A stretch of 64,000 bases of DNA, from positions 1 through 64,000 of the forward strand of contig JAFQOR010000020.1 in the NCBI GenBank assembly GCA_017403125.1, written 5' to 3'. The stretch is from Alistipes sp. Its GTDB lineage: Bacteria; Bacteroidota; Bacteroidia; Bacteroidales; Rikenellaceae. Of this stretch, positions 6,484 through 58,185 are shown one piece after another. Made by a program: the position numbers and the translations under genes. The first letter of the stretch is position 1; every line of letters begins with the position of its first letter. The notes beneath the pieces are model-generated. The model did no database searches and was not told where the DNA came from. It was given only the letters and a program-made list of their open reading frames with translations.

Positions 6484-6630
6484 TTAGTTCCCACTCACTA
6501 TTAGTTCCCACTCACTATTAGTTCCCACTCACTATTAGTTCCCACTCACTATTAGCTCCCACTCACTATTAGCCCCCTCTCACTATTAGCCCCCTCCTAT
6601 TAGTCCCCTCTCACTATTAGTTGCCGCACC
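6484..6630. repeat. 17-base tandem repeat array inside the sulfation operon
   Basis: The unit TTAGTTCCCACTCACTA is repeated. Four perfect copies start at 6484, 6501, 6518 and 6535. Drifting copies follow at 6552, 6569, 6586 (shortened to 14 bases) and 6600, and a partial one at 6617. The copies nearest cysC are identical and those nearest the permease gene are the most diverged. The array is non-coding and fills most of the gap between the permease stop and the cysC start. Confidence 0.95.
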
Positions 6631-37082: not shown

Positions 37083-37150
37083 CGGAAGAGTAGCGGACGG
37101 GTAGCAGAGGGGGAGCGGAAGAGTAGAGAAAGGGTAGCAAGAGAGTAGGG
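37082..37150. repeat. Dispersed CTACTCT-type repeat module, minus orientation
   Basis: A purine-rich stretch of GAGTAGCGGAAGAGTAGCGG-like units. Its reverse complement is the CGCTACTCTTCCGCTACTCT module seen at 2.25 kb and 47.16 kb. Confidence 0.6.
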
Positions 37151-37158
37151 AGTATAGA

Positions 37159-37219
37159 GAGTTTAGGGAGTTTAGGGATGATTTTTAAGGTTGTCGCACT
37201 CCTTAAACTCCTTAAACTC
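37159..37219. terminator. Long hairpin between convergent ubiX and the phosphate symporter gene
   Basis: A 20-base stem (37159-37178 with 37200-37219) has two G-T pairs and otherwise perfect pairing. Its 21-base loop contains TTTTAAGGTTGTCGC, which is identical in the hairpin at 47083-47160. Confidence 0.82.
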
Positions 37220-37273
37220 CTTAAATTCCCTAACCCCGCCCTTAAAGAGCGTTAGTTACTTTCGGACGACGGA

Positions 37274-46995: not shown

Positions 46996-47082
46996 TGAGA
47001 GGTGGCTGCTCTTTCGAGAGGGTCGTGGATGCCTCTTTGTGAGGGTGGTGGTTGCTCTTTGGAAAGGCGGGATTAGGGAAGT

Positions 47083-47160
47083 TAGGGAGTTTAAGGAGTT
47101 TAGGGATGACTTTTAAGGTTGTCGCTTTCCTTAAACTCCCTAAACTCCTTAAACTCCCTA
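47083..47160. terminator. 24-base perfect hairpin between convergent genes, TTTAGGGAG family
   Basis: 47083-47106 pairs perfectly with 47137-47160. The 30-base loop starts with TGACTTTTAAGGTTGTCGC, nearly identical to the loop of the hairpin at 37159-37219. Confidence 0.85.
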
Positions 47161-48502: not shown

Positions 48503-50527
48503 CTATTTGAGCATTGCCTTTACCTCCTCGGCGACGCACTTGCCGTTGTAGCCGAACTTCTCGTCGAGAACCTTGAACGGAGCCGAGTATCCGAAGTGGT
48601 CGAAGCCATGGATGAAGCCCTCGTCACCAACCAAGCCACGCAGGTTCACCGAAAGACCCGAGGTCATGCCATAGCGTGGCAGTGTGCCCAAGACCTCTGC
48701 CTGATACTCCTTTGGCTGGTCGCGGAACAAGCCCTCGCTCGGTATCGATACCACGCGCGTTGCAATACCCTCCGAGGCGAGTAGCTCGGCACCCTCGACG
48801 AGTGTCGATACCTCCGAGCCTGTGGCGATGAGTGTCACCTTGGCGTTGGGAGCCTCCATGACGACATAGCCACCACGCTCTGCCTTCATAGCCTCGACGC
48901 GGCGTGATGCTCCGTTGATTGCGGGCAACGACTTGATATTCTGACGCGAGAGGATGAGTGCTACGGGGCGCTTCTCCTCCAATGCCATCTTCCATGCTGC
49001 CACGGTCTCCTCGGCATCCGCAGGGCGCAATACGAGCATCGAGCGCTCACCCTGATGGTTGTGCAGATGCTCCATGAGGCGAATCTGTGCCTCGTGCTCA
49101 ACGGGCTCGTGTGTAGGACCATCCTCACCCACGCGGAACGAGTCGTGTGTCCAGATATATACCACGTGCTGGTGCATAAGTGCCGAGAGACGTACCGCAG
49201 GCTTCATGTAGTCCGAGAACACGAAGAAGGTGCCACATGCGGGGATGATGCCGCCATGCAGTGCCATACCGTTCATGACGCAAGCCATCGTAAGCTCGGC
49301 AACACCTGCCTGGAAGAAGTTGCCCGTGAAGTCACCCTTGGTAAACGCCTTGGTCTTCTTCAAGAAGCCGTCGGTCTTATCCGAGTTCGAGAGGTCGGCA
49401 GACGACACCACCATATTCTCTACGTTCTCGGCGAAGAAACCGAGCATCTGTGCCGATGCGGCGCGTGTAGCCTGGTCGGGCTTGATATCGATTTTCGAGT
49501 AGTCAATCTCGGGGAGCTTGCCAGAGTAGAAGTTGTCCATCTTCTCTGCCAACGCAGGATTTGCCTTGCGCCACGCCTCCTCGGTCTGCTTCATCTGTGC
49601 TGCCCATGCCGTAAGCTCCTCGCGACGTGCGGCATAGACCTCCTTCGACTCCTCGAATATGGCGAAGGGCTCGTCGGGGTTGCCGCCGAGGTTCTTAATC
49701 GTGGCTGCGATGTCGGCGCCGGCAGCCGTAAGGGGCTGACCGTGTGTCGATACCTGATTCTCGAAGCTCGAGCCATCAGCCTTGCGGGCACCATAACCCA
49801 TCGTGGTCTTGCCGATGATAAGCGTAGGACGCTCGGTCTCGGCATTGGCGGCCTTCAACGCTGCGCGTATCTGGTCGATAGATTGTCCGTTTACGGTGAT
49901 GACGTTCCAGTTCCAAGCCTTATACTTCATCTCGATATCCTCGGTGTCCACCTCGTCGCACTTTGTCGAGAGCTGGATGTTGTTCGAGTCGTAGTACATG
50001 ATAAGGTTCGAAAGGCCGAGGTGTCCGGCAATGCGGCCCACGCCCTGCGAAATCTCCTCCTGCACAGCGCCATCCGAGATGAAGGCGTAGGTCTTGTGTG
50101 CCATCCACTCGCCAAAGCGTGCTACCATGAAGCGCTCGGCAATAGCGGCGCCAAGAGCCATGGCATGACCCTGACCCAGCGGTCCCGAAGTATTCTCAAC
50201 GCCACGCAACACATCCACCTCGGGGTGTCCGGGGGTCACGCTCTCCCACTGACGCAACGACTGCAAGTCCTCGGTAGTGTAGTTGCCTGCCAACGACAGC
50301 ACGGCATAGAGCATAGGTGACATGTGTCCGGGGTCGAGGAAGAGGCGGTCGCGGTGGGGATACGCCATGTTGGCGGGGTCGTAGCGCAAGAACTCGGCAT
50401 AGAGCACGTTGATGAAGTCTGCACCTCCCATAGCGCCACCGGGGTGTCCCGACTTTGCCTTCTCGACCATCGAGGCAGCCAAGATACGGATGTTGTCGGC
50501 TGCACGTTGAAGTTTGTTGTTCTCCAT
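48503..50527 (-). CDS. tkt: Transketolase
   Basis: It transfers two-carbon units in the non-oxidative pentose phosphate pathway using thiamine diphosphate. The 674-residue length matches. GHPGGAMGGADFINVLY and SDGAVQEEISQG (ThDP/metal motif) lie in the N-terminal half. THDSFRVGEDGPTHEPVEH lies in the pyrimidine domain. It follows pepO by 72 bases with no clear promoter between, so a pgk-pepO-tkt transcript is possible. Confidence 0.97.
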   Translation of the reverse strand: MENNKLQRAADNIRILAASMVEKAKSGHPGGAMGGADFINVLYAEFLRYDPANMAYPHRDRLFLDPGHMSPMLYAVLSLAGNYTTEDLQSLRQWESVTPGHPEVDVLRGVENTSGPLGQGHAMALGAAIAERFMVARFGEWMAHKTYAFISDGAVQEEISQGVGRIAGHLGLSNLIMYYDSNNIQLSTKCDEVDTEDIEMKYKAWNWNVITVNGQSIDQIRAALKAANAETERPTLIIGKTTMGYGARKADGSSFENQVSTHGQPLTAAGADIAATIKNLGGNPDEPFAIFEESKEVYAARREELTAWAAQMKQTEEAWRKANPALAEKMDNFYSGKLPEIDYSKIDIKPDQATRAASAQMLGFFAENVENMVVSSADLSNSDKTDGFLKKTKAFTKGDFTGNFFQAGVAELTMACVMNGMALHGGIIPACGTFFVFSDYMKPAVRLSALMHQHVVYIWTHDSFRVGEDGPTHEPVEHEAQIRLMEHLHNHQGERSMLVLRPADAEETVAAWKMALEEKRPVALILSRQNIKSLPAINGASRRVEAMKAERGGYVVMEAPNAKVTLIATGSEVSTLVEGAELLASEGIATRVVSIPSEGLFRDQPKEYQAEVLGTLPRYGMTSGLSVNLRGLVGDEGFIHGFDHFGYSAPFKVLDEKFGYNGKCVAEEVKAMLK

Positions 50528-52706: not shown

Positions 52707-53966
52707 CTACTTGCGTATAGCCACAACGCCCGGAAGCTCCTTGCCCTCCATATACTCCAAGAGTGCACCACCGCCTGTCGAGACGTACGACACCTTGTCT
52801 GCCAAGCCGAACTTGTTGATGCAGGCTACCGAGTCGCCACCGCCGATGAGCGAGTAGGCACCATTCTGCGTAGCCTCGGCAATAGCCTCTGCCACAGCGC
52901 GTGAGCCTGTCGAGAACTTGTCAATCTCGAATACGCCCACAGGGCCGTTCCAGAGTATGGTCTTGCACGAGAGGATATGCTCGCGGAACTTTGCCTTGCC
53001 CTCCGAAGCGATGTCCACGCCCTCCCAAGCATCGGGGATGTTGTTGGCGGGAGCCTCCTGGGTATTAGCGTCGTTCGAGAAGTCGTCACAGATAAGTGCA
53101 TCGGGCGAGCGCAGAATCTTTACGCCACGCTCCTCGGCCTTCTTCAAGATTTCGAGTGCTACGGGGAACATATCGGGCTCGCAGATAGATTTACCCTCCT
53201 TGCCGCCCTCGGCGCCTGCGAAGGTGTAGGTCATGCCGCCACCGATGATGATTGAATCGACCCTCTCCATGAGCTTCTCGATGATGGTAATCTTGGTCGA
53301 TACCTTCGAGCCACCCACGATGGCGCAGAAGGGACGCTGGGGGTTCTGCATGACGCCATCTATCGCCTTCAACTCGTTCTCCATGACATAGCCGAACATC
53401 TTGTCGTTGGGGAAGTAGTCGGCGATAAGTGCCGTTGAGGCGTGTGCGCGGTGTGCCGTGCCAAAGGCGTCGTTGATATAGCAGTCGGCATACGATGCCA
53501 AGCGCTTGACAAACGCCTTCTGCGACTCCTTAACTGCCTTCTTGGCTGCTGCCTTCTCCTCGTCTGTTGCGTCGTCTGCCAATCCGCGGGGCTTGCCCTC
53601 CTCCTCGGCATAGAAGCGCAGGTTCTCCAAGAGCATAACCTCGCCGGCTTTAAGCTCGCGTGCCATCTGCTCTGCCTTGTCGCCCATGCAGTCGCCTGCG
53701 AACATCACCTTGCAGCCAAGACGCTCCTCGATAGCGCCCACAATCTGCTCTAACGAGTACTTGGGGTCGGGATTCTTCTTCGGACGTCCGAGGTGCGACA
53801 TGAGAATCACGCTGCCACCCTTTGCCAAAACGTGCTTGATGGTGGGTATTGCGGCACGAATACGTGTGTCGTCCGTAACCTTACCTTCTGCCGTGAGGGG
53901 CACGTTGAAATCTACGCGGATAATGGCGCGCTTGCCTTCGAAGTTGTAGTTGTCAATAGCGAACAT
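52707..53966 (-). CDS. pgk: Phosphoglycerate kinase
   Basis: It makes ATP and 3-phosphoglycerate from 1,3-bisphosphoglycerate. The 419-residue length is typical. [36 protein letters not shown] and the C-terminal [13 protein letters not shown] are all present. The leader of about 110 bases begins near TATATTTG at 54085-54092. It is first in a likely run of pgk, pepO and tkt. Confidence 0.97.
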
Positions 53967-54092: not shown

Positions 54093-54195
54093 CTCAAAAA
54101 TTTTGAAACGGCATAGCGTTATACCTTAAATAATATAGAGGAGTGGTTTTTTTTGGGCGCCGCGACGTGGCAGAGGGGTAGAGAGATGGGGAGAG

Positions 54196-54468
54196 TAGGG
54201 AGTTTAGTGAGGGGTAGCGTAGCAACCTTAACACTCCCTAAATTCCCTAAATTCCCTAACACACGAATCACGCACGAATCACGCACCCCCACCCCCGTGA
54301 TTCCGTGATTCCGTGATTCGCGTTATCAATCACGCCTCAATCACGCACTAATCACGCACCCCCACCCCCGTGATTCCGTGATTCCGTGATTCCGTGATTC
54401 GTGAGAGAGTTTAGGGGGAGTAGGGAGCGTAGTGCAAGATAGCGTAACAACCTTAACACACCCTAATC
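54196..54468 (+). repeat. Left arm of the long inverted repeat pair flanking the ATPase gene
   Basis: Outer part: TAGGGAGTTTAGTGAGGGG, then GTAGCGTAGCAACCTTAACA and tandem CTCCCTAAATTCCCTAAATT units. Middle: two blocks, each with CACGCACCCCCACCCCCGTG followed by three or four CCGTGATT units. Inner part (54397-54466): GTGAGAGAGTTTAGGGGGAG through GTAGTGCAAGATAGCGTAAC. Each part has an inverted counterpart at 55744-56034 in mirror order. Confidence 0.9.
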
Positions 54469-54517
54469 CCCTCCCCTCTCTCGATAATAAAAAATTTAAC
54501 CTTTCGTGGCAAAATAC

Positions 54518-54548
54518 TTGACATCGCCTCTTTTTTGTTGTATATTTG
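54518..54548 (+). promoter_or_regulatory. Promoter of the ATPase gene
   Basis: TTGACA (54518-54523), 17 bases, then TATATTTG (54541-54548). It fits both the general -35 and the Bacteroidota -7 consensus. Confidence 0.75.
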
Positions 54549-54692
54549 TCCCCTGAACGGAGTACCCTCGATGTTCTGTCGAGGAGCCACGTAGCCCCAT
54601 AGAGCGGTTATCGGACTGCGCTACGCAACACATATTCTCATCTTGGCGAGTACCCCGTATGACATCTCTTCAAACAATTAAACTATTTAACT
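54549..54692 (+). promoter_or_regulatory. Structured leader of the ATPase gene
   Basis: About 140 bases between the promoter and start codon. One clear hairpin is CCTCGA / TCGAGG (54566-54571 with 54579-54584). GAGTACCC occurs at 54560 and again near 54649. No known riboswitch was recognised. Confidence 0.45.
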
Positions 54693-55718
54693 ATGTCAGT
54701 ACAAACAACCCTTCCCGAGGAGTATGGCAACCTTACGGGACGAAAGCTCGAACGTGCCATTGCGCGATTCGAGTATGACCTTGCCGATGAGCGAGTACAG
54801 CAGTATATGGTGGATATATCGAAGGAGCTGCCCGAGCCTACGCCACTGATTAGCATCGATGGGCAGTGTGTATGTTCGCGGGGTAACATATCGGTGATAT
54901 GTGGCGAGGCAAAGAGTAAGAAGACCTTTCTCGCCTCGGCGTTGGTGGCGGGCATGTTGGCTATGCCCATCAAGCAGTCCAGGACCTTTAAGAATGTCAA
55001 GCCTAACGTCCTGACCAATGTGCTGTGGTTGGATACGGAGCAGGGTATGCACCATGTGCGTAAGGTTGTCAAGCGCATAAACGACCAGATAGCCTTCCCC
55101 GACCGCATCGAGCCACGACTTACTACGCTGTCGTTAAGAGAGTTAGACCCCAAGCAGCGTAAGGGCATACTCTACGATGCTGTGCGTGTGCAGACCTATG
55201 ATTTGATAGTTATCGACGGCATCGCCGACCTGCAACGCAACACCAACGACTTGGAGGAGAGCGATGCCCTTATCAACGAACTTATGGCGCTATCGACAAA
55301 GCTCGATTGCCACATAATGTGCATACTGCACACCAATCCGGGTACGGATAAGGCGCGTGGCCATTTAGGTTCGTCGTTGCAGCGCAAGGCCGAGTCGGTA
55401 ATCTACGTGCATCGCAATGGCGAGATTTCGGTTGTCGAGCCGCAGTTCTGCCGTAACGAGCCATTCGAGCGTTTTGCATTCATGGTAAACGAGGATGGGC
55501 TGCCCGAGGTGTGCGACCTTCCGGAGAGGGGCAGCACAGAGAGTGTTATTATTGGTATGCTGCGTGATAGCTATGGTGGCAGGGTCGAGCGTGCGGTGCT
55601 GGTAAACAAGGTTCAGGAGCAGTTGGGCATAGGCGTGGGTGCTGCCCGCATGAAGGTGCATCGCCTAACACGCAAGGGGGTGTTGGGCTACGACGAGCAC
55701 TATGTATGGATTCCGTAG
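54693..55718 (+). CDS. RepA/RecA-like (AAA_25-type) ATPase with C-terminal winged helix
   Basis: The 341-residue protein is a RecA-fold P-loop ATPase. Walker A is GEAKSKKT (71-78), an unusual form with Lys in place of the second Gly. LWLDTEQG (111-118) carries the likely catalytic Glu. Walker B is LIVIDGIADL (171-180). HTNPG (213-217) and GHLGSSLQRKAE (223-234) match the sensor and finger regions of hexameric RepA-type helicases of plasmids and mobilizable elements. The last 55 residues look like a winged helix for DNA binding. It is the only gene between two ~280-base inverted repeat arms. No primase, relaxase, integrase or transposase is nearby. Possible roles are a replication helicase remnant or a stand-alone repeat-associated ATPase; both are inference. 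Confidence 0.85.
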   Translation: MSVQTTLPEEYGNLTGRKLERAIARFEYDLADERVQQYMVDISKELPEPTPLISIDGQCVCSRGNISVICGEAKSKKTFLASALVAGMLAMPIKQSRTFKNVKPNVLTNVLWLDTEQGMHHVRKVVKRINDQIAFPDRIEPRLTTLSLRELDPKQRKGILYDAVRVQTYDLIVIDGIADLQRNTNDLEESDALINELMALSTKLDCHIMCILHTNPGTDKARGHLGSSLQRKAESVIYVHRNGEISVVEPQFCRNEPFERFAFMVNEDGLPEVCDLPERGSTESVIIGMLRDSYGGRVERAVLVNKVQEQLGIGVGAARMKVHRLTRKGVLGYDEHYVWIP

Positions 55719-55743
55719 GGGCTGACCAAGGCGTTGGAGCAAA

Positions 55744-56034
55744 GTTAGGGAGTGATAAGGTTGCTACGCTATCTTGCACTACGCTCCCTACTCTCCACCT
55801 AAACTCTCTCACGAATCACGGAATCACGGAATCACGGAATCACGGAATCACGGAATCACGGAATCACGGAATCACGGAATCACGGGGGGTGGGGGTGCGT
55901 GATTGGTGCGTGATTCGTGCGTTAGGGAAGTTAGAGAATTTAGAGAATTTAGAGAATTTAGGGAATTTAGGGAGTGTCGAGGTTGCTACGCGCTACCACT
56001 CTCTAAACTCTCTAAACTCCCTAAACTCCCTAAC
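55744..56034 (-). repeat. Right arm of the long inverted repeat pair
   Basis: On the minus strand it repeats the left arm in the same order. The part nearest the gene (55744-55810) matches 54397-54466 with about five mismatches and one 2-base gap. The part with CGCACCCCCACCCCCC and CACGAATCACGC matches the left middle. The outer part has GGTAGCGCGTAGCAACCT followed by CTCCCTAAATTCCCTAAATT. Additional CTCTAAATT units make this arm slightly longer. Confidence 0.9.
55814..55885. repeat. Nine perfect tandem copies of AATCACGG
   Basis: An 8-base unit repeated without interruption. The left arm carries the inverted unit CCGTGATT in groups of three and four, so unit number has changed between the arms. 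Confidence 0.97.
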
Positions 56035-56049
56035 AGCCTCTAATATCTG

Positions 56050-58185
56050 CTATTTGAGATACTTGTCGAGCCAGCCGAAGAACTCGCGGTTCCAAACAAC
56101 CGAGTTCTGGGGTTGGAATACCTGATGTGCCTCGTTCTCGAACGACACGAGGCGTGCGTCGATGCCCTGAACACGTGCTGCGGTAAATGCCTCCAACGAC
56201 TGTGTGTAGGGTATGCGGTAGTCCTTCTCGCCCGTGATAATCATGATGGGTGTATCCCAATTTGCCACGAGCTTATGGGGTGAGTTGGCATAGGAGCGCT
56301 GTGCCGTAGCATTCGCCTTGTCCCAATATGCGCCACCATAGTCGTTCGTAACGAAGAAGAGCTCCTCGGTATGTCCATACATCGACTCGAAGTTGAAGAT
56401 GCCGCAGTGGGCGATAAACGCCTTGAAACGACCCTCGTGCACACCTGCAAGGTAGTAGGTCGAGTAGCCGCCATACGATGCACCTACGCAGCCACGACGC
56501 TCCTTATCTACCCACGGCTCCTGCGACACTGTGTCGATAGCCGAGAGGTAGTCCTGGATGTTCTGACCCGAGTAGTCGCCCGAAATCTGGTCGGTCCACT
56601 CCTGTCCGAACGAGGGGCAGCCACGGCGGTTGGGAGCTACGATAACGTAGCCCTGGGCTGCCATAAGCTGGAAGTTCCAGCGGTAGCTCCAAAACTGCGA
56701 TACGATGCTCTGGGGACCGCCCTGACAGTAGAGCAACGTAGGATACTTCTTGTTGGGGTCGAAGTCGGGGGGCAGGATAACCCATGTGAGCATCTGCTTG
56801 CCGTCGGTTGTGGTAATCCAGCGCTTCTCGACCTTGCCAAACTTGATGTTGTCGTAAATCTCGCGGTTTACGTCCGTCAGCTGGCTCAACTCGCCCGTCG
56901 CGAGATTCACGTCGTAGAGCTCTACGGCCTTCGATATGGTGTTCATGTTGGCTACCATGCGGCCACCGGCATAGGTGAAGGTGTTGATGTCGTGGTCACC
57001 CTCGGTTATGGTCTCCATCGTCGAGCCCCTGGCGTCGATGCGTGCAATCTGGTGTGTAGCCTCGTAGGGCAGTACGAAGTAGAGGGCGTCGTTGCCGTCC
57101 CACACAACCTCCGTAGCGCAGATGTCGCGCCCCTTGGTGATGTAGCGCGCCTCGTTCTTGTCGAGGTCATATATCCACAGACGCTGCTGGTCTGCCTCGT
57201 TGCCCGGGCGGCGCTGCGAACGCACGGCAATCTTGCGGCCGTCGGGCGAGAATACGGGGTACTTGTCGTAGCCTACGAAGGGCTCATGCTCGGTAGCAAA
57301 CTCCTTGGTGAGGTTGCGTGTGGCGCCCGTAGCAAAGTCGTAGAGGAAGATGTCCGAGTCGGTAGAGAGCGCATACTCGGTGCCTGTGAGGGGCTTGCAG
57401 GTGTAGGCAAGCTGGGTGCCGTCGTCCGAGAGGCGAATCTCCTTGGTGTCGAAGTAGGGGGCAAGGGGAGCATCCCACGCCTTATCCTCGCCGATGATGT
57501 CCTTGCCGTTGGCAATCACGCCGTTGGCATAGTCGGCAGCGAAGATGTGCAGATACGAGCCGTCGTCCCAATAGTCCCAATGGCGCACCATGAGGTCGTC
57601 GTAGATGCGCACCTTCGACTTATCCATATCCTCGTAGATGTCCGAGCCCTTCATCTTGGCAACCTTCACACGCTGAACATAGAAGGCGTGGTCGCCCGCA
57701 ATGCCGAAGCCCTCGACATCCTTATCGAGGTTCGTAAGCTGGCGCACCTGCTCCGTTGCAAGGTCGAGTGCCCACACCTGCGATGAGCCTGTGCGGTTCG
57801 AGAGGAAGGCAATCTCGGTGTTCGAGAGCCACTGCGGAGAGTGGTTCGAAGAGGTGTTGTCGGTTAGCTGGCGCTCCTCGCCCGTAGCCATGTCGCGGAG
57901 GTGGAGCGTCGTTATGCCGCGATTCTCGGCAAGGTTGTACTGCGTGAGGGCGTAGAGTAGCTGTGTGCCATCGGGCGACAGCGTCTCCGAGCCTATGCGT
58001 CCCATCTTCCACATAACCTCGGCAGTAAACTTGCCTGCCGCCTTTTCTTCGGCGGTCAGGGCGTTGTCGATAACAAGGGGCGCGGGAGCCTCATTTGTGC
58101 TCTGCGCAGCGTCGCTCTTCTCGCCCTCTGCCGAGCAGGCCGCAAGAGTCGTAGCAAATGTCATGATAAATAGTAGTTTTTTCAT
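56050..58185 (-). CDS. S9-family (DPP5-like) dipeptidyl/oligopeptidase, lipoprotein
   Basis: The protein has 711 residues. The signal MKKLLFIMTFATTLAAC has a lipobox, so it is anchored in the envelope. An N-terminal beta-propeller (about 50-430) has Asp-box-like repeats such as SPDGTQLLY and SPDGRKIAV. The C-terminal alpha/beta-hydrolase has nucleophile Ser in GASYGGYS, Asp in GEKDYRIPY and His in NEAHQV. The pattern fits S9C enzymes such as DPP5, which remove dipeptides and supply peptides to asaccharolytic Bacteroidales. The peptide transporter at 14218 would use such products. Confidence 0.93.
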   Translation of the reverse strand: MKKLLFIMTFATTLAACSAEGEKSDAAQSTNEAPAPLVIDNALTAEEKAAGKFTAEVMWKMGRIGSETLSPDGTQLLYALTQYNLAENRGITTLHLRDMATGEERQLTDNTSSNHSPQWLSNTEIAFLSNRTGSSQVWALDLATEQVRQLTNLDKDVEGFGIAGDHAFYVQRVKVAKMKGSDIYEDMDKSKVRIYDDLMVRHWDYWDDGSYLHIFAADYANGVIANGKDIIGEDKAWDAPLAPYFDTKEIRLSDDGTQLAYTCKPLTGTEYALSTDSDIFLYDFATGATRNLTKEFATEHEPFVGYDKYPVFSPDGRKIAVRSQRRPGNEADQQRLWIYDLDKNEARYITKGRDICATEVVWDGNDALYFVLPYEATHQIARIDARGSTMETITEGDHDINTFTYAGGRMVANMNTISKAVELYDVNLATGELSQLTDVNREIYDNIKFGKVEKRWITTTDGKQMLTWVILPPDFDPNKKYPTLLYCQGGPQSIVSQFWSYRWNFQLMAAQGYVIVAPNRRGCPSFGQEWTDQISGDYSGQNIQDYLSAIDTVSQEPWVDKERRGCVGASYGGYSTYYLAGVHEGRFKAFIAHCGIFNFESMYGHTEELFFVTNDYGGAYWDKANATAQRSYANSPHKLVANWDTPIMIITGEKDYRIPYTQSLEAFTAARVQGIDARLVSFENEAHQVFQPQNSVVWNREFFGWLDKYLK

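Follow-up and report, generated by a model that had tools for sequence, protein, structure and literature searches.

Iteron replicons and hexameric helicases of the RSF1010 RepA type pair a replication protein with short tandem binding sites, and Tn7-like transposons have inverted ends made of repeated protein-binding sites. The nearest printed likeness found for the locus reported here is the REPtron, which PMC6006769 describes as a TnpAREP/RAYT gene flanked by REP sequences and as not appearing to transpose as a unit; TnpAREP/RAYT subclass 2.6 is mostly from Bacteroidetes and is flanked by atypical secondary structures (PMC6006769). The REPtron matches the locus in logic (a single gene between its own specific repeats, palindromic in the REPtron, one repeat type per gene, protein-repeat co-evolution and patchy distribution), but differs in its enzyme, in how the repeats are built and in the mobility of the unit (PMC6006769). 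The REPtron encodes a HuH/Y1 nuclease (PMC6006769), whereas the cassette described here encodes a RecA-fold ATPase; the repeats of the cassette are short-unit arrays set in long inverted arms, and the cassette occurs as a whole at many sites. Its iteron arrays are also, among the genome matches listed, not dispersed in many copies, the dispersed part being the outer repeat.

The locus was analyzed in a stretch of 64,000 nucleotides of an Alistipes sp. contig (the window). Its cassette resembles iteron replicons and RSF1010 RepA in RepA-like motifs and in short tandem sites read with a replication protein, but it is chromosomal, has two inverted arrays round one gene, and combines ATPase and putative DNA binding in one protein. 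Inverted ends of repeated units are shared with Tn7, but no transposase or nuclease was found between the window arms, where the only gene-like ORF matches AAA_25 alone. As in site-specific invertible DNA both orientations occur (here between species), but no recombinase was found between the arms in the ORF list or by Pfam. No such cassette was described in the titles or abstract beginnings of the open-licence papers listed by literature searches, and the window cassette belongs to a family that is apparently undescribed. We read it mainly, with a probability of roughly 55%, as a selfish cassette of one gene that descends from a replication ATPase, in the order iteron arm, promoter, leader, ATPase, inverted iteron arm.

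Layout and bracketing of the cassette

Between pgk (52707-53966, minus strand) and an S9 peptidase gene (56050-58185, minus strand), the window has a single 341-aa ATPase gene, a promoter, a leader and two inverted arms of about 280 bp each. The preliminary description had placed arms of equal internal order at 54196-54468 and 55744-56034, with only a promoter, a leader and one ATPase between them, and both points were confirmed: 54189-54466 (plus strand) and 55745-56021 (minus strand) are mutual inverted copies with 74% identity over 310 aligned columns (E = 2.8e-58), and their inner ungapped blocks (I1-I3) are 92-98% complementary. Each arm has three layers, a dispersed repeat on the outside, a middle array, and a second copy of the dispersed repeat, consisting from the outside inwards of TTAGGG/CTAAATTCC with GTAGCGTAGCAACC, of CGTGATTC/AATCACG arrays on either side of CACCCCCACCCCC, and of a 52-bp block. 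In the middle array, 8-bp CGTGATTC units stand opposite AATCACG units with CACCCCCACCCCC between them; two such elements lie in tandem in the left arm, and one, longer, in the right.

On the left (plus strand), the outer part, with its CTAAATTCC array and GTAGCGTAGCAACC, spans 54196-54260 and has related copies elsewhere in the genome; the two tandem iteron elements (AATCACG units, CACCCCCACCCCC, CGTGATTC units) span 54262-54404, and the inner block 54405-54468 (repeat comparisons I3 and D6). On the right (minus strand), repeat comparison placed the iteron array, with about 10 copies of GAATCACG, a GGGGTGGGGGTG centre and GTGATT units, at 55805-55922, and, together with genome matches, the outer dispersed TTAGGGAAT/ACTCCCTAA repeat at 55922-56034. 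Between the arms, on the plus strand, a promoter-like TTGACA...TATATTTG box of Bacteroidetes type (54518-54548) is followed by the leader (54549-54692) and the ATPase gene (54693-55718), and promoter, leader and ORF form the block common to sister cassettes. A TTGAC...TATATTTG-like box was found upstream of the ATPase gene in 48/59 loci.

The named collection comprised 67 loci, all titled Alistipes or Rikenellaceae MAGs and many from herbivore guts. For the bracketing comparison 58 were taken (L071 and L102-L109, partial or at contig ends, were omitted) and 10 were dropped for short flanks, leaving 48. Inverted repeat arms bracketed the ATPase in 46 of these 48, the exceptions being L050 and L067, and in 0/92 control ORFs of at least 200 aa drawn from the same loci; the bracketing in the window is therefore not chance, and the bracketing of the ATPase gene by inverted arms is real. 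In an earlier genus set, whose genomes overlap the later one, 25/30 were bracketed. The ATPase was present in 27/61 sampled genus genomes, the window's own included, and a wider profile search matched 73/180 genomes, distant armless relatives included. At a strict limit of E <= 1e-60, 120 genomes of other genera of Rikenellaceae gave only weaker relatives (best 2.8e-70).

The same arms could belong to a self-regulated resident gene, as operator arrays for the winged helix, with the right arm arising from inverted duplication and the differences between sites from rearrangement and loss instead of transposition. In its favour, the left arm stops 16-111 bp short of the -35 box in 31/38 measurable loci (51 bp in the window), synteny is rearranged around the window, and the covariation described below suits an operator as well as an iteron. 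However, the downstream array of equal kind seen in those 46 of 48 loci is unnecessary for an operator, and movement is indicated by the 34 neighbourhood groups and by a site that is empty between colinear flanks (see below), so we regard this explanation as unlikely.

Arm sequences and dispersed repeats

The arms of one cassette match each other, and those of different cassettes often differ, even at one site (sites A and B, below), which we read as concerted change. By eye, the common plan runs from outer units such as GTnACA, through a centre like ACACCCC or CGCCCC, to inner units (TGTTAC, TGTGAC, TGTTCG, TGTAAC, TGTAAT, TGTTAA or TGAAAT), usually repeated every 8-9 bp. Among loci whose units are 9 bp long, some have the right arm inside the reading frame; repeat units lie inside the ATPase frame of L049, L051, L052 and L072, where they are translated as VTDVTN-like repeats ahead of the acidic tail. 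Incompatibility of equal units within one genome was considered and gained no support (12 pairs, 1 shared against 1.47 expected).

The window genome (1.84 Mb, 31 contigs, 88% complete) was compared with both parts of the arms. Among the 29 matches listed (40 of 54 candidates scored), the middle iteron array recurred only at one locus (C21:43565-44308 of G000; L009, 1565-2309), where three iteron elements, inverted as in the cassette, enclose about 445 bp that lack an ATPase. No ATPase remnant was detected between these arms (best tblastn E = 0.097), and the pair is possibly a gene-less derivative or relic. Iteron arrays were few in G056, G046 and G004, and gave 0 matches in G140, G093 and G080.

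The outer parts, by contrast with the iteron arrays, belong to repeat families dispersed across the chromosome; the arm of L092 matches its own genome 53 times, mainly through the outer part. Palindromic arrays of the same build as the outer arm parts, with TTAGGGAGT units facing ACTCCCTAA-like units, are dispersed in the window at 37146-37233 and 47073-47160. A 17-bp tandem repeat of 8.4 copies (TTAGTTCCCACTCACTA) was also noted at 6484-6622, and short tandem arrays with other units were seen in the ATPase-less genome G058 (L247). Rfam gave three weak miRNA-model matches, below the gathering score.

Under a RAYT-like model, the ATPase would spread the dispersed outer repeats. Repeat load was compared around pgk and S9 in 10 ATPase-bearing and 10 ATPase-less relatives (regions up to 20 kb, two per genome), and was not higher with the ATPase but lower (P = 0.045); the ATPase is thus not the driver of these repeats, and the model was rejected. 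The caveat raised earlier, that the arms may be expanded members of a chromosomal repeat family, holds for the outer arm part, the load of which is not raised where the ATPase is present.

The gene might also be passive cargo, carried by recombination between chromosomal repeat families, with arms that are ordinary expanded family members. The dispersed nature of the outer parts and the independence of repeat load from the ATPase would suit this. But the iteron part is cassette-specific, being listed only in the cassette and at the one ATPase-less locus, the controls in the same loci were never bracketed, and covariation with the ATPase's own putative DNA-binding domain would be left unexplained; passive carriage is, in our judgement, highly improbable.

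The ATPase and its relatives

The window ATPase matched Pfam AAA_25 (PF13481) with 51.6 bits, against a curated cut-off of 27 (E = 1.2e-13), as its sole Pfam match above cut-off. PF13481 was matched by 19/19 family members at E <= 0.1 (best 2.2e-15), and identity to the window ATPase was 40-62% across the 50 cassette ATPases aligned. In the family alignment, GEAKSKKT at residues 71-78 (54903-54926, plus strand) is a Walker-A-like motif. For the window protein, no NCBIfam model matched and no HuH/Y1 transposase-like match was found in Pfam, PHROGs or NCBIfam. No profile match to a solved structure was obtained. A role as defence gene was set aside; matches to mad8 were weak, occurred in 8/19 proteins (best 4.7e-5) and were absent for the window.

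The C-terminal winged-helix-like domain was placed at residues 286-328 (55548-55676, plus strand), with covariation with the arms in residues 304-327. Winged-helix matches of the C-terminal ~55 residues were weak and in few members, the best being MarR_2 (3.9e-4, in 2/19). Purifying selection acts on the ATPase core (pN/pS 0.08-0.21 in those 11 of 12 hand-picked pairs that were informative), and pN/pS of the HTH segment was 0.20-0.70: five pairs with equal by-eye units gave 0.20-0.30 and six with different units 0.29-0.70, the pairs overlapping one another. A PF C-terminus, nearly always after acidic residues, ends 22/59 cassette ATPases (e.g. L052, L057, L070), the window protein being without one; this acidic end resembles the C-terminal tail of SSB. 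ATPase relics with stop codons were found at L039 (G028:C2), still bracketed by 66-bp arms at 92% identity, and at G028:C1:27631-27924.

AAA_25 ATPases of phages and mobile elements have the same ATPase core as the cassette, but arms were found only in the cassette: 0/12 such relatives had inverted arms (L166/L167 and L171-L180, of which L175 had only 197 bp downstream). L166/L167 have a C-terminal region in common with cassette ATPases and a ...HDEPF end; L166 adjoins a phage integrase, a gp3 packaging gene and an ORF6N gene, an integrase-like ORF was read by eye beside L167, and L171 adjoins a Toprim primase gene. The core was also matched in plasmid and phage sequences. A recent phage origin was rejected, the 7 viral-contig relatives being only 29-31% identical. 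From these relatives we infer that the cassette descends from a replication ATPase of phages or primase-bearing mobile elements.

Covariation of the C-terminal domain with the arms

Distances between arms were calculated with a phase-free k-mer measure, in place of the by-eye unit table. Given the rest of the protein, the wHTH domain correlated with the arms (partial Mantel r = 0.256, P = 0.0002; 46 loci, arms having been called in all but 4 of the 50 aligned). This was also found for the left arm alone, upstream of the gene (r = 0.226, P = 0.0002), and in the 31 loci left after thinning to <80% core identity (r = 0.203, P = 0.002). Given the wHTH domain, the remainder of the protein was not significantly correlated with the arms (partial Mantel). 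Across 13 sliding windows only residues 286-328 (P = 0.001) and, weaker, 266-308 (P = 0.026) stood out, with finer windows peaking at 308-319.

Single residues were compared with unit classes in 57/59 loci with at least 5 unit counts; these associations were picked post hoc, related loci are not independent, and automatic unit classes are uncertain for some loci (in conflict with by-eye units at L058, L063 and L070 among others). With this limit, D316 was found in 6/7 TTCG cassettes vs. 0/50 others, in three ATPase lineages; R/K315 with T317 in 8/10 TGTGAC cassettes vs. 5/47 others (T317 alone, 9/10 vs. 12/47); and N317 in 7/14 TGTAA cassettes vs. 2/43 others. Since the C-terminal domain covaries with the arms and D316 tracks TTCG-type cassettes, the ATPase very probably binds its own arms, the winged-helix-like domain being the predicted means of recognition. 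The idea that the ATPase acts on these repeats, put forward in the preliminary description, is backed by this covariation.

Sites, probable movement and inversion

Shared close neighbours sorted 59 loci into 34 neighbourhood groups, 26 of them single, a number that contig ends may inflate and in which paralogous neighbours merged some. At the site occupied by L092 in G056, G046 is empty, with about 283 bp between colinear flanks, and an 82%-identical G046 cassette is located on another contig; the empty site differs from G056 across the whole intergenic DNA. G004 is likewise without a cassette there; its right flank is 94-95% identical to that of G056, its left flank 87-89%. In G004 a 2.5-kb gene segment is inverted (L157, G004:C15, 7606-10094), one breakpoint being the place of the G056 cassette. 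In 16 pairs of sister cassettes the similar stretch begins near the left arm's inner edge, takes in the whole ORF and in most pairs reaches hardly any further; a few pairs also have pieces of the arms or of dispersed repeats in common. Neither a target-site duplication nor an exact cassette end was found.

In several species site A carries ATPases that belong to different lineages; it has therefore been re-occupied or its cassette replaced, and replacement at hot spots may account for part of the spread. Orientation was reversed at this site in L053 relative to L051, L052 and L054, with flanks otherwise colinear. At site B, the flanks of L058 and L063 are 89-91% identical, and an 83%-identical ATPase region stands in opposite orientation. 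Both flips are between species.

These opposite orientations in colinear flanks would also be expected of an invertible switch, in which the main use of the arms would be to let the gene be inverted, as in phase variation, whether through host recombination or through a recombinase located elsewhere. However, the promoter is itself enclosed by the arms and would be inverted together with the gene, leaving expression unswitched; orientation differences were seen only between species, and the arms differ between cassettes. We hold a switch to be very unlikely.

For the window itself, the preliminary description had named an ATPase fixed between pgk and S9 in all relatives as the finding that would speak against its reading; pgk and S9 were instead on different contigs in relatives showing both genes (>40 genomes, among the matches listed). 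None of 16 fetched neighbourhoods (8 pgk and 8 S9, 6-8 kb each) had the other gene or a cassette, and pgk and transketolase, divergent neighbours in 5/8 fetched relatives, are separated in the window. Because of this split, and because pgk-S9 adjacency was not seen in the relatives examined, the window cassette is placed, from gene order, at a rearrangement breakpoint. With no relative examined having pgk next to S9, no clean empty site could be found for the window, and the L092 site was used instead. Three different cassettes have a transketolase gene nearby (within about 5 kb), each at an exact site of its own (window 48503-50527; L081 2392-4416; L072 2-766); a common site for L072 and the window was discarded, as only this gene is shared and the exact sites differ.

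The cassette is probably mobile as a unit, moving between sites and turning round in the course of evolution. The earlier proposal of a mobile cassette is backed by patchy presence, many sites, the empty site and sister cassettes at different sites, and that of an invertible segment by inversion between species at two sites. Action on the repeats, mobility and inversion are not mutually exclusive, and the interpretation given in the preliminary description is, as a whole, partly supported.

Proposed mechanism and implications

Returning to the selfish cassette as the preferred reading, we infer a possible course of events: the ATPase would assemble on the array of each arm, open the DNA and start local replication, perhaps aided in many members by the acidic, SSB-like ...DDxPF C-terminal tail, which would suit recruitment of restart proteins. 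Over-replicated inverted-repeat DNA would then be resolved by host recombination, which could copy the cassette to new places, flip it, keep both arms alike and at times break synteny, as on the pgk side of the window. This replication-driven movement is offered tentatively, at less than even odds. We would give similarly guarded credence to a new class of mobile element without transposase, recombinase or nuclease, in which a replication ATPase reads inverted iteron arms by a fast-evolving DNA-binding tail and replicates the DNA between them, host repair inserts the product, and lineages re-invent the arm code.

If true, a mobile element can consist of one ATPase and the arrays it binds, and the list of routes by which DNA moves would be the longer for it. 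Dozens of ATPases with many arm codes form a natural set on which a code of protein-DNA recognition can be tested directly. Some of the rearrangement seen in Alistipes genomes may also be due to the cassettes.
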